From assembly GCF_000004825.1 (NCBI RefSeq), contig NW_008805074.1, positions 496,001 through 560,000 of the forward strand: a stretch of 64,000 nucleotides of DNA, written 5' to 3'. The notes beneath the pieces are model-generated. The model was not told where the DNA came from. It was given only the letters and a program-made list of their open reading frames with translations, and searched no databases. This DNA is from Heterostelium album PN500. Its lineage: Eukaryota; Evosea; Eumycetozoa; Acytosteliales; Acytosteliaceae. Positions 8,926-63,930 of this stretch are shown here, piece by piece (positions within the stretch are counted from its first letter, which is position 1; each line of letters begins with the position of its first letter). Position numbers and translations under genes: made by a program.

Positions 8926-11900
8926 ATGTTTACTGTTAATAAACCAAAGTTTAGATTCAACTTGATCCTTATGGATGAAGGTGAATACTATTTCGATGAT
9001 TACAGTGCATCCTATTATCCACCTGCCGAAACAGATGAAGAGTCATTTCAAAAGTATGTGTTTTAAAACAGACAGATGACGGACGGAGATTCAATGAATG
9101 GAGAATGAATGGAATCATGATACTAACTAAACAAAACAATGTGATTATAAAGAAAAGTAAAAGGTAGAATTCTAGTTTGTTCAAATTCGATATTCTTTGA
9201 ACCCGATGATGTGAAACAACCTATATTGAAATTTCCATTCAAGGAGGTGACGAATATCGATCAGTTGATATACCAATTGAATGTTGGTGCTCCAAGTGTT
9301 ATCGGTGGATTAGGTGGTAGTGGTGGATTCTCACAGCAACAACAACAACAACAGCGTTCAACACGCTCTATCAATCTGCCAACCAATACACTGGCGTCAC
9401 TTGCACGCACAGAGATATTCTTTATACAAACGAATCAGGTAGTCGAGATGAAGGAGAACAACGTCAATGCACCGTACAAGTTTATCAAGGTGACACGCGC
9501 CAACTTTAGATTCTCACTGAACTACGTCAACCTCGATGCGATACTGATGAACATGCGTGACTTGCTCACCTACTCGAAACAGGACCGACAGGATCACGAC
9601 CGTCTCATCAAGTCGCTGATAGAGGAGCGTGAGAATCGGCTGCAACTCGATTACTCGCTCCTCGTCGACATGAACGAGCGGAACATGCTCGAAATGAAAT
9701 GTTGCAAGATATCGCCACTCGTCGAGAATCCCGGAAGATTCCTCGTCACAAACTCACGAATCTACTTCCAACCGATGAACAACATCGAAGCTCAACGAAT
9801 CAACCACTTCAACCTCGATTCAATCATCAAGATACTCAAACGTAGACACTCACTCCGCGAAATCGGTTTGGAAATATTCTTTGACGATGAATCATCGCTA
9901 TTCTTTACATTTAAAAAGTAAGTAGTAGTGGAATTAGCACTATCCAGTTGTTGCAACAACACAACATTTGTTAACAGTCAATCCTTTTTCACTTTCATTC
10001 CATTCCAGTATGCAATCTAGAAATCAAGTTTATAATCTTTTGAATAGTGAATGTAAGAATATACCGCATAACAATGAGCAGAAGAACTATTTGTTGCGTT
10101 GGCAAAATGGAATACTATCAAACTATGAGTATCTTTTGTATCTGAATAATTTGGCCGGTAGAACCTATAATGATTTGACGCAGTATCCAGTGTTTCCATG
10201 GGTGATTAGCGATTATACCAGTCAGACGCTGGACCTCGCCAACACGGCCATCTATCGTGATCTCTCCAAGCCGATTGGCGCGTTGAATCCGACAAGACTC
10301 TCGATGTTCCAGGAGCGATACCACCAGATTCCAGACCCACAACCCAAGTTCCTCTATGGAACTCATTATTCGGCGCCAGCGTACGTTCTCTACTACCTGG
10401 TGCGTCAGGCGCCAGAGTATATGCTGCGACTTCAGAACGGACGATTCGATTCGCCGAACCGTATGTTCCATTCACTCGAGGAGACTTGGAACAGCGTCTA
10501 CAACAGCACGAGCGACGTCAAGGAGCTGATACCAGAGTTCTACGAGCCTGGCGACCGCGGCGAGTTCCTGCTAAATCGCGAGTCTCTCGAGCTCGGAGTT
10601 CGCCAGGACGGAAAGGTGTTGGGCGACATCATCTTGCCGCCGTGGGCAAGCAGTCCCGAGCAATTCATCATCACAATGCGAGAGGCACTCGAATCCGAGT
10701 ACGTCTCACAGAATCTACACAATTGGATCGATTTGATTTTCGGATTCAAACAGCTCGGCGACGAATCGGTCAAAGCCAACAATGTATTCTATCATCTGAC
10801 GTACGAGGGCAGTGTCGATATCGAATCGATAACCGATCCATTCGAGCGACAAGGTCTGGAAGCGCAGATCAACGAGTTTGGACAGACACCTCGCCAACTC
10901 TTCAAAACACCGCATCCACAGCGACTCCCGCTCGCTCTGCGAAACCACAATCTATCTGCTTCTAGCACCAACGCTATCATCGACCAAGCGAATCTCTCTT
11001 TCAATGTAGACGACAGCGGTGGATTCAACAGCAGCGGCAGCACCGCCAACAGTTTAGCAATGAGCAGTAACAGTAATTTCTCGACATCCAGTAACAACAG
11101 TAATTACAATAGCGATAATAATATACCAGCATTACAAAGATCAATGAGTGGACTCTCATTTAACAATAGCAATAATAACAGCAGCAACATGAACAAATCA
11201 CAATCCAATTCATCAACTACTTTAAGAAGTTGGGGATCAATTGCAAATTTACAACTTAAAAATTCATTCAAAAATCACAAAGAGTATGTTTGGAACACTA
11301 TACAATACTATCATCATCCTTTAAAATGATATTAACTCCATCTCTTTATATTTATAGCAAAGTAACATCATTGTATTTATCAGAAAATTCCGATATTATT
11401 TATTCAGTTTCACAAGATGCTTCATTAAAAATTTATTCATCAAAAGAAAAGAAACAAGTAAGATCATTAAATCTATGTGAACTTGCATTATCTTCATGTC
11501 AACTTTCAGGTGATGAAAAACATATTGTTATAGGATCATGGGACAATAATATGTATGTATAAATCAATTGGTTGGAAAGTTTAGTAAACATAAAGATTTC
11601 TAATATTATTTATTCTTTTTCTATATAGATATATTTATTCAGTTGATAATGGAAGTATTCAAGAGACATTGTGTGCACATGACGATGCTATTTCTTGTTT
11701 GAAATTAAACAATGATGTGCTGGTTTCAGGTAGTTGGGATTCGACGATCAAGGTTTGGAAGGTGATGCCTTCCTCCGTGGGAATCAACATTGGTAACATC
11801 CCAATTGCCGATTTCATCGAGTCGGAATCTGAAATTAGATCGGTCGATATCAGTCCCAACGGTCTGATGTGTATAGCCGGATCGGAAGACGGCACCCTTT

Positions 11901-48243: not shown

Positions 48244-50087
48244 TTTATTATTATTCTTTTTTTATTATTTATTATTAGAATTAATTATTATTACTAAAAT
48301 TGAAAAAACAAATAAACAAACAAACAAAAGTTTTAAAAACACAAATATATAAATATATATATATGAAACAAAAATAAATTATTATTTTTTTTAAATTAAA
48401 TACAAATAATATAATTAAAAATAAATACTAAATTTATTATTATTAGTATTTTTTATTTTCTTTTAAGAAAAAAGGAAATGGAAAAGGATTATAATATATA
48501 AATAAAAATACTATTACTATAATAAATAAATAAATATTAATTTAGAAACAAATGATTTAAAGTTTATAGGAAAAGGTGTTGAATATTTAAATAGTTTAGG
48601 CGATTTGAAGTGGATTTTGATTAGTCAATCAATGAATTAATATTGATTGATTGTGTGCAAATATTATGAATTTGGATTTTTTTGCTACCTATGAAATCTG
48701 CATGTGTATAAATTAATCACAATGTCATACCACTTTTGATATCAGCTCTATATATGTACTTAGTAATTGATTGGCGTTTCTTTAGAATTAATTAAAAATA
48801 AAGTAAACACCTTTGGATTGTGATTGTGATTGTTGGTGGTTTGGTTGGTGTTTTAAAAAGTTTAGAGGTGAGCGTGTGTGTGTGTGTAATGTTTTCAAGA
48901 AAAAGGGAAAACTTTAAAAAAAGATGGGTGGTAGGGAAATCAAAAAGAAAGAAAGAAAAGGAAAGAGTGGAAAGAGCTAAGTGGTATGGAAGAAGTATTT
49001 TTGATCTATTAAAAATAATTATAAATAAAGAAATTATATAAATATAAATTTACTATTACTTGTTTTAGTGGACTAATTAATATTGGTAAGTGTTATTGGA
49101 AATATATAATGAATAAATGATTAGATTATGTCTTTCTCAAAATATAAAGATTAGATTCTCATTGTATTAAATAAATAGAAGGTGAGTATTGAATGACTTA
49201 ATAAATAAATAAATAATATTCAAAAAACAAAAACAATACGTAAACTAAATATTAGCTAATTAATAATGTGTTTTTAATATTTATTTAATTGATTGATTGA
49301 TTGTTGATTGTTGATTTGATTGTTTGCTGTTAATTTTATTTTTGATGATGTATGATTTGATATCATTTAAAAAAAACAAAAAAAATTATATCAAAATAAA
49401 CATAAATAAAATTAAAATTGTATGTAAGTAAGTAGAGAAGGTAGGTGATAGGCAGTTTTATTAAATCAATTAATATGTATGATGTGTAATTTCTAATCAA
49501 GAAATGAACAATTGTTATTGTTGACAATAAATTAAAAATAATATGTATTTTATCATTTTATTTTAACAAATATTTTGCTTAATTTTAAAAAATTAACTAC
49601 AAAATATTTGTATTTAATCAATAACTAAAAAACACTCAATCAAATAATAATATAAACATTAATGGGTTATCAATTAAAATATTAAGGATATGTATTTTTT
49701 TTAATCTTTGGGTTAGTGATTTAATTGACTGATTAAAATCGAAAGATTATCTATTTTATTTATTTATTTTTAAATTTATTTTTGCAATATATTTTGTTCC
49801 TTTATTAATAAATAATATAATATTTTTTCCTAATTATTTAATAAATGAATTATCGATTGGAAGAAAAACTAAAATTAATCAATACAATCGAAAAATGAAC
49901 AAACCAAAAAAAAAAAAAAAAAAAAGATAAAAAAAAAAACTGGTTCATTCATATTTTTTAGTTGTTTTTTATTTGATTTGATAATATTTAATATATATAT
50001 ATCATTCAAATTAATCAACGAAAAACGATTAATTAATTTTATTTGAATAACTTTATATATATATATATTTATATTAAGATATAAAGA
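48244..50087. other. 1.8 kb divergent intergenic region
   Basis: AT-rich DNA between the unknown 969-aa gene (-) and U2A' (+), with poly-A and TAAATAAATA tracts. A short Arg/Lys-rich frame near 48820-49041 is purine-rich simple sequence and not credible. No RNA gene seen. Confidence 0.5.
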
Positions 50088-52464: not shown

Positions 52465-55400
52465 ATGATGGTTGAAAAACCAAATGGTGGTAGTGGATCT
52501 ACTTTAGTTTATAATGGCAACACTCATGGTAATGGCAATGGCAATGGAAAGTTGAATAGATATGACGAAGACGATGAAGAGATGGAGGAGGGCGAAGAGA
52601 AATCGACTATCGATTTGAGAATGTCGAAACTGAAGAATCAACATGAATCGGTGATCACCGGTGCCCACGGTTCCTTCCTGATGGACTGTGATCATCGTCC
52701 CAATCATATCTGTTCATCTTCGACATGCAACGGTAATCCCGACAAGCAACATCATCATCACCAACGTCAAAATGGTAGTAGTAGTAGTAGTCATTCGAAA
52801 TCATCGTCATCATCATCATCCTCATCGTCATCATCATCAAAAGTTAAAAAGTAAGTAAAATACTAGTTCAATTTCAATCAATAGTATAATACAATAAACT
52901 AAACATTGCACATTCAGTGATTATAAACAACCATTGCCTATTACAACTAAACAGGAGGGTGCAACCAATGGACGTATGCCAAGAAAGAGTGGATCATCGC
53001 AACCTTCGATATCGACTATTGTCAAGACGATGACCAATCCAATCACTCCGATGTTGTCGCCTTTCAACGAAACCATAGTACAGAGTACATCGATATCTGA
53101 ATTTGGTGAAAATGACAACAGTAATAGTAATAATGATCAACATAAATCAAATGGTGTTACCACAACAACAACATCATCATCATCATCAAAATCAACAACA
53201 AGCAATAGCACCAATTGGAAATCAAATAAATATAGTGATGAAGAGAATGATGATATGGTTACAACAACAACAACAACTACATCATCATCAAATAATAATA
53301 GCAATAAGAAAGATGTTAAACAATCCACTACTAGTAATAATAATAATAATAGTAATGTCAAGAAAGAAACAGGAACAACAGAACCAAATATTAAGAAAGA
53401 GGAATCTAAAAAAGATTTAAAGATTACTATTAAACTTCCTGATAAACAGAAAGCAAAGAATCAACAATCAACTACAACAGCAACAGCAGCATCGGCAACA
53501 GCAACAGCAACTTCAACATCAACTACAGCCGCAACTACTACAGCAACTACTACAAATTCAAATTCATCAAATATAATAGTTCCACCACCACCATTACCAG
53601 ATTCAAAGAAGAGAAAACAAGTTGAATCAAATTCGTCAATGACAACAACAACAACAACAGCAGCAACATCAACAAGCAACAACAATACAAATACGAATAT
53701 GACTGAAGATGAAAGTACAAAGATGGATATATCCGATGAGGATGAAGATTTATTTGGTGATAAGGAAATGGAGGAAGATAACAATAGTATTAATAATAGC
53801 AGACAGAAAGAAGAGGAGAGATCATCAAAGAAATCGAAACCAGATAACTCCAAACAATCTAACAAGTCAACAACTCCAAGAGATAGATCAACTGATAAAG
53901 ATAAAAACGATAAAGATAAACGTTCAGATTCTCCAAGGAGAAATAGTATAGATAATTCAAAGAACAAGGATAAGGATAAAGAAAAGAGTGGAAAGAACAT
54001 CAAGAAGGACGATAAGAGAAACAGTTCTTCAACTGCGCTTGCTACTGATGTCAACGGTGGTGGAAGTGGAAGGGGTGATAGAGATAGAAATGAAAGAGGT
54101 GACAGAGATAGAAGTGAGAGAAGCGATAGAGGTGAAAGAAGTGGTGGCGGTGGTGATAGAAGTGATAGAGGCGATAGAAGCGATAGAGATAGTAGAACTG
54201 ATAGAAGCGATAGAGGTGAGAGAAGCGATAGAAGTGGGGGTGATAGAGATAGAGATAGCAGAGAGAATAGCAGCAGCAGCAGCAACAACAGAAAGAAGAA
54301 AGAGGAAGTGTTCAATCCATTCTCTGTTTCAGATGCCGATAGAAAGCAAATAGATTCGGAAACCAACACTACTACCACGACTACTAGTAGTAGTAGCAAT
54401 CAGTCAAAGAGAGGAAGCAGCGGTAATGAGAAGAGTAGTAGTAAATCCAGAGGAAGCGGCGGTCAAGACGACAAAGATTCAAGAGAAAGAGATCGTGACA
54501 GTAGAGACCGTGATAGGGATAGAGATCGCGATAGAGACAGAGATCGTGATAGAGATAGAGATAGAGGTGGCGGTAGTGGCAGTGGCGGCAGTGGTGACCG
54601 TGACAGAAGAGATCGAGATCGCGATAGAAGTGAACGAAGTGGCGGAAGTAGCGGAGGTGATAGAGATCGAAATAACAATGATAAAGATAAAGATAGAAAT
54701 AGAGATAAAGATCGTGCTTCTTCAAGCAACAATAACAATAATAATAACAATAACAACAATAATAATAATAATAATAGTAAACGTGATAGTGTTGATACAT
54801 ACGAAATGGAATCAACCAATCGTCCAAAGAAAACAAAAGAAGAAGAGAAACAGATTAGAGCAGAGATTGAAGAGCTAAAACATGATGGTAAACGTTTGAA
54901 GACATCGGCACTATCTCTACAGGAATTAGGTGAAGTCGATTGCTTAGATATCTTTTTTCAAGTTGGACTTAAATATATACAATCTGCTTATTTAATGATT
55001 GTAAGTCATACTCATCTCACTCAAATTACTATTACTATTTCATTGTACTAATTAATAATTATATTCATTCATTCATTCACTCAAAGGATACTGAAGGTGC
55101 AGTAAAAGCATCAAATTGTTTCTCATCGGCAGGTGCTTTCTTTTTCGGCATTGCAAAGCTTGCTGGTAGTACTTTCAAGTTAGATGCTATATGTTCATTT
55201 TTGTAAGTAGCGCTACAACTATTTGTACTGGTGTTGCATATCTTGGTTAACTAACATATAATATATATTTAATCAGCTTTAAATGTGCATCATATTGCTA
55301 TGCAAGATCATTCTTGATAAAGAAAGATCAACTAAGACATTCGAGAAGAGAGTTGGCTACTCATTTCCCAATGAAGTCGTCGACCCTCACCGTACCTGGT

Positions 55401-55799
55401 GCACCCAATTTAAATAATCTACATATCAATTCACAAACACTACCTTCGACACCAACTACCGGTCCATCTTCACCATTGCCATCACCGAGAGACCATCATG
55501 TTGGTGCTACCGGTAGTAGCAGCAGTAGTAGTGGAGGTGGTAACTCATCTACTTCTACCACCTCTACGACCACCTCTACATCCAACACACAACACAGTCT
55601 GTCAACCAACTCAAAAGTATCACTCTACGTTAGAGACACCGAGGATATCTTCACCTACTTTGATTGCAATGAACGTGCCAACCGCATCGCTGCAAACAAC
55701 AATCAGTGTATGGTTTTCGAAGATCACTTTGTAACTTCATGTCCTGTGTTTATTGATCTCGTAAAGAAGGAATATGATAGAGTATCCAAACTTCACTAA
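52465..55799 (+). CDS. AF4/FMR2-like protein (super elongation complex scaffold candidate)
   Basis: Predicted 1035-aa protein from exons 52465-52850, 52918-55000, 55087-55202 and 55277-55799, all GT-AG and in phase. Residues 1-760 are disordered: Ser/Thr/Asn tracts, acidic SDEDEDLFGDKEMEED, Lys-rich regions and long Arg-Asp/Arg-Ser repeats. The C terminus looks like the AF4/FMR2 C-terminal homology domain. It has IEELKHDGKRLKTSALSLQE, VGLKYIQSAYLMI, AGAFFFGIAKLAGSTFKLDA and CASYCYARSFLIKKDQLRHS, then RRELATHF. These match the animal pattern of AKxLKHxAD, ALxYIQC and FRLKKDxxxKYSRxLxxHF, followed by a Pro/Ser linker (TGPSSPLPSPRD) and a last helical part (FVTSCPVFIDLVKKEYDRVS). In animals AFF1/AFF4 hold P-TEFb and ELL together to release paused RNA polymerase II. 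The family call is by eye and from memory. Confidence 0.65.
54482..54567 (+). repeat. Coding Arg-Asp (RD) repeat
   Basis: Imperfect 6-bp repeat (GATAGA, GATCGT, GACAGA) that encodes alternating Arg and Asp in the AFF-like protein. Synonymous codons are mixed, so selection may act on the protein repeat and not only on the DNA. Similar RD/RS-type repeats lie nearby at about 54070-54260 and 54600-54720. Confidence 0.8.
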
Positions 55800-55933: not shown

Positions 55934-56976
55934 TTATTCCTTCTTATTCTCTTTAAAAGTATTTAATGCCAACAAAGCAGCACCCATACCAGCTGTACAT
56001 TTAGGATAGACTGGTACTGCATTTGGTAGCTCTTTAGCAAGCTTCTCCTTTAGTTTGTCACTGAATATACAGTCTCTCTCAATATTTCCACCGGCCAATA
56101 CCAATGGAACTTCTTTTTCATTCAATAAGTTTAACTTTGTAAATACACTTTTAATAAATTTCTAAAGGTGAAAGAATAGATAGAAACATAAGTTAGATTA
56201 GATTATCATTGTGAAATACTTTTAATTAATATTAATATTAAACAACTTACAACTAAAGCAGATGAATGATGATCGAGAATACTAATGGCAACTTTATCAC
56301 CTTTGAGTGCACATTCAGTTGCAAGCGGTGCAAGTTCAGCGACTCTGTGCCAACCTTGGTTTTTTGGGTCGTATGCCCAAGTGATAAGTTGTTCCTCTTT
56401 GGTGACCTGGAGTTTATCGAGTAATGCTTGGGTGAGGAGTGTCTTATCGTTGGTTTCATCTTTTGCCATGCAAACGTACTTGAGCACATCGAAACCAATT
56501 TGATATCCGCTACCGTCGTCACCAAGTGCCGGTCCCCAACCAGCGGATCTAGTTTTATTTCCGTGGTGATCGATACCGAACGATATACATCCGGTGCCAC
56601 TGATCACTACGACACCAAACAATTTACCCATGGTACCAGAGGTCAGAGCAACGACGGCATCATTGAAAATCTTATATTGAGCATTCGGTAGCAGCGAACG
56701 GATCCATCCACCAACCAACTCGATATCCTCTGGCCGATCGACACCACTGATACCCAAACAAATCTCTACTACATCCTCAAGACTGCCACCGGATTTCTTG
56801 ACAGCCTCAGAGATACTCTCGTAGATTGCTCGCTTGGCTGCCTCTTCACCAACGCTATGATAGTTGCTACAGGTAGAAACGAATTTGCCTAGCTCATTAC
56901 CGTCAGAGTCAACCACTACAGACAATGTTTTTGTTCCACCACCATCTAATCCTACAAATAATTGTTGCTTTTTCAT
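55934..56976 (-). CDS. N-acetyl-D-glucosamine kinase (BadF/BadG/NAGK family)
   Basis: Predicted 317-aa protein from exons 56976-56251 and 56161-55934 (phase 0). It has the sugar-kinase/actin-fold ATPase motifs: phosphate-1 loop VGLDGGGTKT near the N terminus, IFNDAVVAL with the Asp expected near the sugar site, phosphate-2 GVVVISGTGCISFG, then GWGPALGDDGSGYQIG, and the adenosine-side VPLVLAGGNI. Length is close to the roughly 340 aa of animal NAGK. It phosphorylates GlcNAc at O-6, salvaging amino sugars from glycan breakdown, which suits a bacterivore feeding on peptidoglycan-rich prey. I chose ATG 56976 because the frame extends upstream without another ATG. It converges with the AFF-like gene, 134 bp between the stops. 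Confidence 0.9.
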
Positions 56977-57359
56977 TCCTATTTCTTTGTTTAATTTAAT
57001 TTTCTGATTGTCAGCCAAAAAAAAATGCTTTTGAACATTCAAAAATATCAAATTTTTATTTTTTGAAAAGGTAAATTTTAAAATACCACAACAAGATATT
57101 TTTAAATTCCAATGACTTTTTTATATCAGTTGGTTACCATCATCGCTTAAAAATTAAATATTGATGTTTTTTTTTGGGGAATAAAATTGAAACAATCTAT
57201 ATTAACTCATATGAGTTCCTATCAAACTTTTATTGCAAGATTAAAAAAGTGTTTTTTTTGTAATTTTCTTCAATTGAAGTATTTCCAATGTTTACAAAGT
57301 TTGAATAAAATAGAAAATTAAATAAAATTAAAATTTAAAAGACTGAAAAAAAAAAAGAT
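56977..57359. other. Intergenic region
   Basis: About 0.4 kb between the GlcNAc kinase start and the 3' end of the NIPBL-like gene, both on the minus strand. AT-rich promoter and 3' flank only. Confidence 0.5.
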
Positions 57360-60300
57360 TTATGAACTTTTAGTATTTCTCTTTCTTGTTGTTGTTGTTG
57401 TGCTTGTTGTTTTACGCTTCTTGGTAGCTGCTGCCTTTTTCTTTTCATTAGCATTGTTGGTTGTAATGGTTGAGTAATCGACATTGTCATCTTTCAATAG
57501 TAATTTGAATGAGAGGAACACTCTCTTTTGAATATCGTCTTGTGATAGCTCTTCTTCGGTTGGTAACACAGTGAATGGATAGTTACTCTTGGTGAATGTC
57601 TGTGTCTCTGGGAGTGTGATTTGTAGTTTATCGGAATTCTTTCCGTCCTCCAAGTAGGCTTTGGCACGTTCCTTTGTGATATCGTAGGTCTTAATGAGAT
57701 AGCGTTTCAGTTCCACGAGCAGAGTGACAATCAATGATGCCAGGAACAGCGATTTGATAGTTTCATCCAACTCTGCAGAGTCATCGTCGCCAGTCTTCTT
57801 TCGTTTGGACATCGACGACTGAATTTCGGCCATACACGAACTGCCCTGGAGTGAAACGATCTTATCTATGGCAACGACAATCTCAAAGATCTCATCCATA
57901 TTGGAATAGGGCAGCGACGCGAGTATCTCCACGAGGAATCGACAGTACTCCAAATTCTTATATCTATAGGTCTTATTGGTATTTTCAAACTGTGACATTA
58001 TATGATTGATAAACGTTGTTCTCGATTGTTTTAGATTTCTAAAGAGTAAATAGAATTTCGATAATCCTTTAGATACACTATTATAAGGTGATTCTAAATA
58101 ATAATAGAGATTCAAATGTTAATTAAATATTTCTTTTTTGGAAAATGTTAATAATATTATTAATTTTAAAACTTACTGGTTCCTAAACCTAAATGGAATC
58201 TGTAGCATAATCTAATACTTTCAATAACACGTTTGAATAGAGTTGAAGAATGTTTTTGATTGATGAATTCCAATACTCTATAGGCTACCTCTGAAATCTC
58301 AGGACTGGTATCGGTAATCAATGTAATGATCTCAGGAACTGCTTCAAGTGGATTGATTATTCCTTGTTTTACAATTAACTCTACAGTTGAAACCGTAAAG
58401 AATCTGACTGATTGCTCGGAATCTACCAATAATTTACAAAAAGTTGAAAAGAATTTCTGAATTGATGATACTAATGATCTATATATTTTTGGTTATTAGT
58501 TAGTTAGCTAATTAGTTTGTTAAAAATAAAAAATACTTACTCTCCATTAATATCAACATTCATAGAAATAATAGGTCCTCTCTTTTTTTTCTTTTTCTTA
58601 TCGCTGTCATCGTCATCTTGATCATCGTCATCATTCTCACTTACACCAGAGTGATCGGTTGCACTCTCTTCAGACTCTGACTTTTGTTGGTTGTCTTCTG
58701 CTTTGGTGACCGGGTTCTTCTTTTGGAGAGTTTTCGCTTCTTTCTTCAACAGCTTGAGATAGACTTTCAAAATGGTCTCTTTTATCTTTGTCTCCAACGT
58801 CAGTGATTTCGCTATGATTCCACGTATAGAATCTTGATTTAAAATCGGTGGTGACGATATAATGATGTTTCCAATCGATTCCAACGATGTCGAAATAACA
58901 TCTTTATCCTTGGTGTACAAAAAGAGTTTGGTGAGGATTGCAGTGATGTCTGAGATGATTGATTTGTTTGGTTGTTGCGGCTGCTGCAGTTTGAGAGATG
59001 CCGGTACATCAATGGTGAACGGACGCTTCTCAAAGTGATAGTAACGCACCAACAATCCGGTGACATAGAGCGATCGAAGAATTTCGGATTTCGTTCGGCT
59101 ACTGCATGATTGGAGCAGAAGAAGGTGTCTACAGAGCTGTTCCTCCAACAGCCGATAGTTATGACTGGTACTCTCGATGATGATACTCAAACACTTGATA
59201 CATTGATGAACCAAAACCGAACCCTGGGTCAATATCAAAGTAAGCAAATCCTTTTCCAACACTGCCAAGAATTGTTTATCGATATTCTCAATCATTGGAA
59301 TTGTCTTTTGTAAAATATAAGTAACAATTACAAATATCTTTAATTCTTCACTGTTGATTGTCTATTGGAGCAATCGATTAATATCGTTGTTTTGTTTTGG
59401 TTATGAATTATTTAACTTACTTTGGTTGATAATTTAATGTATGGATGTAAAACCTTGACGTAGGTTGTCAAAAAAGTTGGATCTATCTTACAAAAGATTC
59501 GTAGACACTTGAAGATTGCAAGGAATTCAGGGAATTCTTTGGTTCGTCGCTTCTCGTCGAATGAGATCAACATGTCGATGAGATAGGAGCAGATTTGCTG
59601 GCAAGTTTCTCCGATTGATTCTGCACTCTTTTGTTGCTTGGTTGCACGTTTCGATGGTTTGCCTTTGTCTGTCAGTTTATGAATGAGTCCGACGAACCAT
59701 TCGTCTTGATTGAGTTGCTTAACAACTTCGACAATCTGTTTCGATTTTTGCATGATTGTTTGTTCGTGTTCGCCAAACCAGAGGTCTTTGAAAGTGTTTA
59801 TGACCAGCTCTCGAATCGATTCGTCGTCGTTGATTCTACTCACTAGAACCTTGCAGAGTTGCGGTATCTTTGGGTGTTGAATCTGTGAGAGACAGACGTC
59901 GTGTAGCGTCTTGACGACACGCTTCCTCACACTGATTCCCTTGTCGCCAATCAACTCACAGATGAGATCGACGTATCGCCATGTCAAATCCGGTTTCAGC
60001 AGGATGTACTTTCCGATGAGGTCGACGGTGTGTTCACGCACAGCAATAGAGTCGTCAGAGAAACGATTCTTGATGGAGGTGTGAACGAATTCATCGGCTA
60101 GAACAGAAGGATCAACTTCGACAATGGTAGAGAACGACTTCATTGCTTTGGCTCTTGCCAATTTCGAGCTATCGTAGAGCACCGACAGTAGATTGTAAAG
60201 AAGTTCATTGACAATGTTGAACAACGATCCTTTGGTGTGAATGGAGAGCACTCTAAACAACTTGGCTGCCATCTCACCACCGAAAGTATAGCATTTGAGT

Positions 60301-63300
60301 GTCGAGTTGATGTTACCTTCCTGTGGTTGCTCCCATTGCGATAGAATATATTGTTTGCTCTGGACGGTCAGCTTTGAACTCAGAAAATCATTGTCCAGCC
60401 AACTGGCAATGAGAAACTGTCTGGAGCAAGTCAGCCAACGTTCACTCTGTGACTTGGAATTGAGGTAGTTCAACATCAAGTGAATGAGAACATTGTAGTC
60501 ACTGTTCTTTGGAGGGGGTACAAACTTTTTAGGTCTTTCTTCCTTGCTACTACTACTGGTACTGCTAGTTGTTTTTAGAATATTAAAACTATCTTGTACA
60601 TCTTCATTATCAGCATTATCATCCTCTGGAATTGTATTCATTTTCTTTCTTTTCGAGAATGGTAATTTTGATTTTGTTGATTTTGAAGAAGTGGAAGTGC
60701 TGTTGCTGCTGCTATTTGTTGTTGTTGTTGTTGTTGGTGTCGATGAAATTGGTGGTTGATAATCATTCACTTGATTCAATATTCTACAGGAAATACATTG
60801 CCAATCTAATTGCTGATGTTGTTGGTCAAGACTGTAGTCAGGTGCACACAGATCGTGGAAGAGTTGGTTGCACTGAGTGCACTTGGTAGTGAACGATCCA
60901 ATCTTGAACTTTCCACATTGACAAACAGGTAGATTACTATTCTCAATCAAGGTGGAAGTGGAAGTGATTGAAAGAGTTGGTTGTTGTTGTTGATTGTTGA
61001 TATTATTACTCTTAAGTCTATCACCATATTTCTTTTCGAATTCCTCTGCCAGTTCCAAGTCGGTGGTAATCAACGATTCGATATTCTCATCTTTATGATT
61101 AACACGTTCGGGTGACAATGATGTTTGAGCTGTCGATGATGATGTTGATGATGATGATAACGTTCCTGTTGTTCCTGCTGCTGTTGTTGATGTTGTAGTT
61201 TCTTGTGAGATGGTCATGAGCGATAGTAGATCGCTAAAGTGAAGTGGTAGACTCGATAGCTCCTCAGCAGATGCCATACACTCTTGTTTCAGTTTGGTAA
61301 TGATTTGACCTAGTAAATCAATAGCCATCATCTTGAGAATGTCGGAACTGCCAGACTTGTTCTTATCCTTGTCACCAGCACCAGCACCTCCACCAAGGAT
61401 TCTACACAATGAAACCGAGAGTAAGTGCAACAACATATTGGCAGCTGGCCACTCTGGATTATTGACAAGCACCAACAAATCAGCCAAGAAGTTATCGAGC
61501 AACGTACGATATTCACAATCCTCACTCTTTGTCGAACATTTGTTGATAAAGTAGAGAACAACCATCGAAGCATTATCATGAGCCAACTTCATTGGTAGTG
61601 TAGTCGAAGTTGTCGAGAATGTTGTTGATTTGTTGTTCAGCTCTGGAAGTGAAGGTGAACTTTGAATGAGTTGTAAGAATAGCGCTGTTACATTCTGGAT
61701 GGAACGGCTATCCTTGAGTTTGTAGGTTCTCAAATTCTTCTTGAGAGCCGGTGTCTTTGAGAGGTTCGAGAGTGTCTGCTCAAAGATCGATTCCTGTATC
61801 GCTGGATATCGGCTATAGGTTGATCGCAGCAACTCGATTGCACTCAACTGAATGAAACTAATGCCACCGATAAACAACGATGGAATAGCTATATCCACCA
61901 ACATCGTTGGGAATGGATCGGGTGGTGTATATATCGATACCAACTGTGCCAAACCATTGAATATCTCTGTCACTTTATTACAAGTATAAAGATAATAGTT
62001 ATGTCCACGTCTATTGAATAGATTTATTAAGTTAATAAAATGTATATGATTGTCCAATTATTGAGATTGAAGGTACTTACTTTTTAAACTTTAAAGATGA
62101 GGATTTTGATTTTGATTTGGATACAGATGATCTTTTGGCTGAGGTGGTTGATGACGTCTTTTGTTTTTTCTTTTTCTTCTTTGTTGATGATGATGATGAT
62201 TTGTCCTCTGATTCAGAGTTATCAACATCAGAATCATCGTCGGAATCATCTGAATCGTCGGAATCAAATTCACTGTCATCTTCATCATCCTCCTCTGCAT
62301 CGGCATCATTATCTTCCTCCTGACTGCCGACACCACTATCTTTCTTCTTTGTTTGTTTCTTTTTTGACTTTGATTTAGAGTTTGCTTCATTCTCATTTAT
62401 GGCTGTCACTGTTGTGTTGAATCTTGTCTTAAAAGATGGATCTAAATGACCGAGTACATTCTCTGTGTATTGCGTCTTGAAGAATGATACCAACTCTATC
62501 AGTTCATCGTCGATAAGCTCACACAACGAAAGACCAACCATCGGTATGTTTAGAATCTGAAGGATTAGAATGGACGATTCCAGAGAGAGTTCGAGTTTGC
62601 GCAACTCCAGAAGTTCTTTATCACTCAATTGCTCACTGAATGTCAGTGAGTGAACATCCTTTGCCTCTTTGACATACTTCAATAGCAGTTGGAAGAGATT
62701 GGCATACTGCTCGAGCGCGACAAGATCTTGCAGTTGACCGAGTGAGTGACTGACCATCGATGCCAGGTCGGAGCGCAGTGTCGACACCGTCTGGAGCAAC
62801 AGGTCTATACTACCGACAGACTTTATGGCAGCGCTCACATGACCGACCACTTTGGCATCGTCGATAAACTGTTGAACTGACTGTTGAAACTTCTCGATTG
62901 GAACGACCTGTACCACCTTGTTGTGAATGATTTGATCCAGTTGATCTTGAATATGTTGATCCAAAGGTGTCTGAGCAGATTCAATATATTTATCCTTTTC
63001 TTTTTCCATTTCCTTTTCCTTTTGTGCTTTTGATACTCTTGGTTTCTTTGTCGTTGTAGTTGCTACTTTCTTTGTTGTTGTAGTTGTTGTTGCAGTATTA
63101 TTATTATTACCATTAACTCCATTTGTTCCATTTAAATACGATTCAAATTGATAGTTTGGTTGTGGAATATATTGTTGTTGCTGTTGTTGTTGTTGTTGAT
63201 ATGTATTTTGTATGAATTTATTATCGTTTAATACAAATACATTTGAAGGATTATGTGGAATTGTCAACATTGGTTCACTACCAATATTGTATTGATAGAA

Positions 63301-63640
63301 TGGTTGACCTGTTTGTTGTGCATGTTGTTGTTGCTGTTGTTGTTGTTGTTGATGAATATTTATTGTTCTAAAATTATCTTGTTGTTGTTGTTGTTGTTGT
63401 TGTTGAAATTGTAATTGTTTCATTAACATCTGTTCTTGATATTGATGTTGTTGTAATGTTATCGATGGTAATTGTTGTAATATATTATTTAAAATAGGTG
63501 TTGGTTTTATAAAATAATAGCCATTATCTTGATTATTATTTATATTATTATTAAAACAATCATTCTTCATTGATAGATAATTAACATTTGTTTGAGCTAA
63601 TCTATTATTTATATCTTTAAATATATCATTATTATTTATA

Positions 63641-63707
<67 letters not shown>

Positions 63708-63930
63708 GATTTAATAACTCCAATGTATTATTTAAAACAAGAGTATCTTGTAGTTGCATAGATACGGATCTCTCATTTCTATAGCAAGGCAATGGTAATT
63801 CATGAACAGGATCACCTATTTGTGCAAGATTACTAAAACATCCAAATGGTAATTGAAGTGATTGTTGTTGTTGTTGTTGTTGTTGTTGAAATATGTTCTC
63901 TTTGTTTTGATAGTTATCATTATAGTTCAT
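57360..63930 (-). CDS. Cohesin loader NIPBL/Scc2 with PHD finger
   Basis: Predicted about 2,072-aa protein from exons 63930-62081, 62010-59421, 59304-58541, 58457-58177 and 58093-57360. A Gln-rich N terminus contains FGCFSNLAQIGDPVHELPLP. A helical region follows, then an acidic Asp/Ser/Lys tract and a PHD finger at about residues 980-1025 (CQCGKFKIGSFTTKCTQCNQ ... WQCISC, C4HC3). The HEAT-repeat core matches NIPBL well: ARAKAMKSFSTIVEVDPSVL, DDSIAVREHTVDLIGKYILL, GISVRKRVVKTLHDVC, INDDESIRELVINTFKDLWF and QSVRFFTVSTVELIVKQGII. It loads cohesin on chromatin with Scc4/MAU2 and activates its ATPase. The start of exon 4 is uncertain. The in-phase acceptor is at 58458-58459, but an upstream acceptor (58480-58481) would add the family-like SLVSSIQKFFSTF if one base of an A6 run (58438-58443) were absent. 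Confidence 0.87.
63641..63708 (-). repeat. Polyglutamine-coding CAA repeat
   Basis: About 22 consecutive CAA codons (TTG on the plus strand) in the N terminus of the NIPBL-like protein. Almost pure CAA with no CAG interruptions, so likely length-variable. Several shorter CAA runs lie nearby (about 63170-63200, 63328-63352, 63380-63404 and 63860-63890). Confidence 0.95.

Follow-up and report, generated by a model that had tools for sequence, protein, structure and literature searches.

A probable distant AFF-type C-terminal domain in a low-complexity protein of the social amoeba Heterostelium album

The social amoeba Heterostelium album PN500 encodes a protein of 1035 residues that, judging from its sequence, is probably a distant member of the AFF/THD family. 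Most of what is known of AFF scaffolds comes from animals, via leukaemia and HIV transcription. The explanation as a whole, which we favour with a confidence clearly above even, is that of a dictyostelid AFF/THD member that would be dimeric and would gather elongation factors in a simple elongation complex; for the role of elongation scaffold in itself, the chances would be a little better than even.

Gene structure and predicted protein

The analysis covered a stretch of 64,000 nucleotides, hereafter the window, to which all coordinates refer unless otherwise stated. AFF4 helices, loops and interface residues are given here and below as in the published structural description. The gene and the proposed AFF-type C-terminal homology domain (THD) comprise the following features:

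52465..55799, + strand: gene, with ATG at 52465 and stop at 55797-55799; 1035 aa encoded by four exons, which three GT-AG introns separate
52465..52850, + strand: exon 1, encoding residues 1-128 plus the first two bases of codon 129
52851..52917, + strand: intron 1, 67 nt, GTAAGT..AG
52918..55000, + strand: exon 2, from the remainder of codon 129 through residue 823; low-complexity front and start of the C-terminal domain
53417..53437, + strand: LKITIKL, residues 296-302, resembling the AF4 strand that binds the AF9 AHD, with a matrix score within chance
54060..54720 (limits approximate), + strand: RD/DK-rich repeats of the front
54824..55796, + strand: proposed THD, residues 765-1035, split by introns 2 and 3
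55001..55086, + strand: intron 2, 86 nt, GTAAGT..AG
55087..55202, + strand: exon 3, encoding residues 824-861 plus the first two bases of codon 862
55203..55276, + strand: intron 3, 74 nt, GTAAGT..AG
55277..55799, + strand: exon 4, bearing the Pfam AFF4_CHD match, which the genome search puts at 55269-55712
55311..55313, + strand: F874, counterpart in the alignment of AFF4 F1014, on which dimer core 1 is centred
55368..55610, + strand: Pro/Ser/Thr-rich linker, residues 893-973 (81 residues), located where AFF4 has its flexible loop
55626..55628, + strand: Y979, counterpart in the alignment of AFF4 Y1096, on which dimer core 2 is centred

The preliminary description had given the gene exactly these limits, and they are borne out by a complete open frame in which each intron runs from GTAAGT to AG. 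When nearby GT/AG site combinations were tried, the frame stayed open in two models, of 1035 and 1033 aa, and the former was adopted because all its donors read GTAAGT. The motifs that had been claimed for the tail are all found, namely KHDGKRLK (residues 783-790), YIQSAYLMI (815-823), FFFGIAKLAG (841-850) and YARSFLIKKDQLRHSRRELATHF (870-892). The long RD-rich front that had also been described is present as well: residues 1-764 are of low complexity (17.8% S, 11.6% N, 11.1% D and 10.2% T) and contain RD-rich tandem repeats, SR-like repeats and S/T/N tracts. At E 1, the genome yields no paralogue: the gene's own exons account for all three matches.

Several other frames of the window carry recognizable domains. 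The convergent neighbour (56206-57051, - strand) matches the BadF/BadG ATPase family at 134.7 bits and probably encodes an N-acetylglucosamine kinase. Farther along the window, the frame at 59412-62057 (- strand) contains Cohesin_HEAT (43.5 bits) and looks like part of the cohesin loader Scc2/NIPBL; it also carries a PHD-finger-like Cys/His motif, CQCGKFKIGSFTTKCTQCNQLFHDLC, and Pfam lists no PHD finger at E 0.001. A PHD finger occurs in SCC2 in plants. For the next frame (62077-63930, - strand), which may be the start of this Scc2/NIPBL-like frame, Pfam gives no match. At the other end of the window, a frame at 9968-11326 (+ strand) includes a BEACH domain (393.2 bits). The GC content reaches its minimum among the 64 one-kilobase steps, 16.3%, at 49001-50000.

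Match of the tail to the AFF4 profile

The last 270 residues had been described as showing the layout of the AFF C-terminal homology domain, and a significant profile match had been set beforehand as a test. Such a match exists: scanned alone, residues 761-1035 reach 30.0 bits against Pfam AFF4_CHD (PF18876; curated cut-off 24, E 4.7e-7) and exon 4 alone reaches 29.9 bits. Residues 861-1007 are aligned to profile positions 105-227 of 264, which correspond approximately to helices alpha4-alpha6, the dimerisation part of AFF4. The claim stands to this extent, the tail alone exceeding the Pfam cut-off and a weaker match outliving the linker swaps described below. However, the match falls short of the whole domain, the profile positions outside 105-227 being unmatched; residues 761-862 and 761-892 scanned alone have no Pfam match, and in pairwise comparison the tail resembles human AFF4 marginally. 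Nor does Pfam list an AFF match for the last block alone, which COX6B matches better (16.9 bits, below the cut-off of 26). The families that compete for the tail, CytochromB561_N (18.4 bits, E 0.0011), COX6B and Herpes_capsid, all remain under their own cut-offs.

A Pfam scan of the full 1035 residues does not list AFF4_CHD, probably because the filters of HMMER react to the biased composition. The genome (32.9 Mb, 39 contigs) was searched exon by exon with profiles; the first pass with AFF4_CHD forwarded a single candidate, and the gene, with 28.7 bits, is the single match in the genome even at E 10. No AFF4 chain was listed up to E 10 when PDB sequences were searched with either the tail or residues 761-892. 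When residues 767-896 were compared with a collection of viral contigs and one of genome contigs, which together cover viruses, bacteria and archaea, 21 and 131 pattern stretches, respectively, were obtained, with no confirmed relative among them. The AlphaFold prediction for exon 4 alone, from a single sequence, has a mean pLDDT of 35.2.

Contribution of the linker and of the helical blocks

Against AFF4_CHD, the linker of human AFF4 by itself reaches 32.7 bits, which indicates that the profile rewards linkers. An unrelated helical tail with a Ser/Pro-rich linker could therefore be rewarded by the profile, a spurious match that we consider quite improbable. Masking of the amoeba linker with X is in line with it, as AFF4_CHD is then listed for none of three constructs; X-masked AFF4 retains 325.2 of 406.4 bits, and removal of most of the amoeba linker leaves 11.2 bits (E 0.25). 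However, AFF4_CHD is unlisted for the native amoeba linker alone. Furthermore, when the native helical blocks were combined with six replaced or shuffled linkers, AFF4_CHD was listed every time, at 12.9-18.9 bits (individually 18.9; 15.7, 18.0, 16.8, 17.7 and 12.9), all below the cut-off of 24; it was the top family in five of the six constructs, and the register was 108-226/227 in four. By contrast, only one of seven constructs in which both blocks were shuffled had AFF4_CHD listed, at 7.5 bits and over the linker, and the single construct with both blocks reversed did not. Shuffling of one block with the native linker kept gave 19.5 and 18.8 bits. These swap, shuffle and linker-alone scores imply that each helical block and the linker contribute to the match, for which the linker alone is insufficient. 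A rewarded linker would also fit poorly with the genome, which is rich in S/T/N tracts and gives no second match to AFF4_CHD at the permissive threshold used.

Direct comparison with human AFF4 and the dimer core

The human AFF4 CHD/THD (PDB 6K7P, 6R80 and 6KN5; PF18876) is, like the amoeba domain, C-terminal after a long low-complexity front. Both have the same block order, a Ser/Pro-rich linker between the blocks, a CxSxxYxRxFxxKK block and the dimer-core positions F1014/Y1096. They differ in that identity amounts to about 31% and this in the best block only, the front halves being barely alike, and in the spacing between the two aligned blocks, which is 84 residues in the amoeba protein versus 61 in AFF4.

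Using the letters of the PDB chain, the best block aligns AFF4 1004-1032 with residues 864-892 (score 44, 9/29 identical), a score reached by none of 5000 shuffles. The likeness is weaker for AFF4 936-961 (4/26 identical) and 1094-1120 (4/27), whose scores were reached by 467 and 187 of 5000 shuffles, respectively. With gaps and under three settings, the local score of residues 765-895 against AFF4 was reached in 6, 9 and 24 cases out of 2000 shuffles; the corresponding counts were 1204, 1126 and 362 for the last block, which is chance level, and 5, 13 and 10 for both parts together. BLASTP of the tail against human AFF4 gave a marginal E of 0.005 in a single comparison, and this marginal pairwise likeness is what a spurious match would also produce.

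Against a window-wide set made of 1853 window frames and three tail constructs, the front part of AFF4 ranked the gene's place first, at E 2.3, and for the last part of AFF4 the gene's place was missing among the matches listed. In a phmmer search started from AFF4, the tail without its linker ranked top of the window at E 0.87, the best reversed decoy having E 1. A linker-free profile made from two AFF sequences, one of them provisional, placed the native core second of 2001 in one build and outside the top six in the other.

According to the structural study, F1014 and Y1096 are at the centre of two hydrophobic cores by which two copies of AFF4 pair through alpha4-alpha6, and replacement of either residue by alanine breaks the AFF4 dimer, AFF1 having required more changes (PMC7026398). 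In the ungapped blocks, F1014 corresponds to F874 and Y1096 to Y979. Among the 14 interface residues of AFF4 that lie within the aligned blocks, 6 are identical (F1014, K1018, L1028, Y1096, V1097 and T1100) and 8 are different (L1011, A1021, Y1024, S1025, V1099, F1103, L1104 and T1107); H1090 falls outside the blocks. As the match covers alpha4-alpha6 and core residues are retained, the dimerisation part is the best-matched part of the domain, and the amoeba protein likely dimerises.

AFF landmarks in the front and a possible other nuclear role

Unlike AFF4, the amoeba protein has no detected AF4 N-terminal family or P-TEFb segment. PF05110, the AF4 N-terminal family, is absent from the Pfam scan of the whole protein at E 1. 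The best ungapped score of the P-TEFb-binding segment (AFF4 32-67) in the protein was reached by 142 of 400 shuffles; taken separately, the strand of this segment was reached by 129 and its helix by 385 of 400. The heptapeptide LKITIKL is no more than suggestive of an AF9/ENL AHD-binding strand: a loose pattern, picked after viewing the sequence, occurred in 38 of 5000 shuffles, and the matrix score was reached by 185 of 400.

The chief rival to an elongation scaffold starts from the same domain. The tail would be a true THD, an old dimerisation module reused in nuclear proteins, and the RD-rich protein would have another nuclear task; we regard this as unlikely, albeit less so than a spurious match. 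It would agree with a front rich in RD and SR-like repeats in which no AFF partner motif is clearly above chance. It is also favoured by a provisional AFF-family sequence that weakly reaches another Pfam family named THD, THD_CWZF3-5-7 (PF24756; 17.8 bits, cut-off 27, E 0.0028), so that THD-like domains may exist outside AFF proteins; the AFF4 chain is unlisted for this family in the same scan. This weak match suggests that the domain may be older still. However, THD_CWZF3-5-7 is unlisted for the tail and, at E 10, unmatched in the genome of the amoeba, and the genome encodes EAF, which speaks for the elongation scaffold that we prefer.

Elongation factors encoded in the genome

EAF was found at 51.4 bits (E 1.6e-13, cut-off 26) after its exons had been joined by hand. 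An unjoined exon remains just under the cut-off, with 24.4 bits in the genome search and 25.2 bits when scanned alone. The gene is in short coding pieces (locus L002, G000:C8:18233-21361, 1133-1720); at their first junction, which lies next to a run of A, a clear splice site is missing, and either an error in the sequence or an intron of unusual type may be responsible. The frame that follows the pieces is rich in Ser, Asp and Glu.

ELL was sought with two profiles. PF10390 gives nothing in the amoeba genome up to E 10 and nothing in any control genome. PF07303 matches three places, all below cut-off, and gives weak matches in 4 prokaryote controls as well; two of the three candidates were read, L003 lying in a frame that reads like an SNF2-type remodeller and L004 in one that reads like a coiled coil, and these two were rejected as ELL. 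Neither PF05110, for which this is a weak negative, nor AHD is found in the genome at E 1, and both are missing from the control genomes too. As the searches for PF10390, PF05110 and AHD were made exon by exon and were silent in every control, they do not show absence. PF00526 (Dictyostelium CTDC repeat), which we take to be a dictyostelid family, is matched 150 times with a score in this genome and never in the 14 control genomes, as would be expected of a dictyostelid. YEATS matches occur at two places; neither is established as AF9/ENL, and one frame resembles GAS41/Yaf9 by its coiled coil.

A possible ancient elongation scaffold

Ebp1 is the Ell1-binding protein of fission yeast, and its complex is reportedly a rudimentary super elongation complex, which makes it the nearest precedent. 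The likeness proposed here is that both would be distant AFF-like proteins of unicellular eukaryotes having EAF; the Schizosaccharomyces pombe system differs in that ELL was not found in the amoeba genome. An AFF protein in Dictyostelium is named in none of the titles and starts of abstracts found; subscription papers lay mostly beyond the search, so a precedent in print is possible.

The proposed mechanism takes as its starting point the observed gene structure, profile match, retained dimer-core residues and EAF in the genome. The last 270 residues would fold as a TPR-like helical domain with a handle, through which, given the retained handle residues, two copies would pair. The long low-complexity front would present short binding sites for partners, the likeliest of which, by analogy with AFF4 and with Ebp1, would be the EAF of this genome and a still unseen ELL. 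The protein may thereby bring elongation factors together on RNA polymerase II, forming a simple elongation complex.

Since no other AFF landmark tested is clearly above chance, the claim of an ancestral elongation scaffold rests on the domain and on EAF. A stronger version, to which we tentatively give slightly less than even weight, is that a rudimentary super elongation complex, built with EAF on a dimeric AFF/Ebp1-type scaffold, is at work in dictyostelids and that this scaffold predates the amoebozoan-fungus-animal split.

The domain was seen when the tail was scanned alone and missed in the full low-complexity protein, so automatic annotation could overlook such proteins. Homologues of NELF-A and NELF-C are reported in Dictyostelium discoideum (PMC4940160). 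With an amoeba that has EAF and an AFF-type tail, and with these NELF homologues, the pausing and release of RNA polymerase II could be studied outside animals. Globally, the weak but credible match of the tail to the AFF4 domain hints that such a scaffold is older than animals and fungi.
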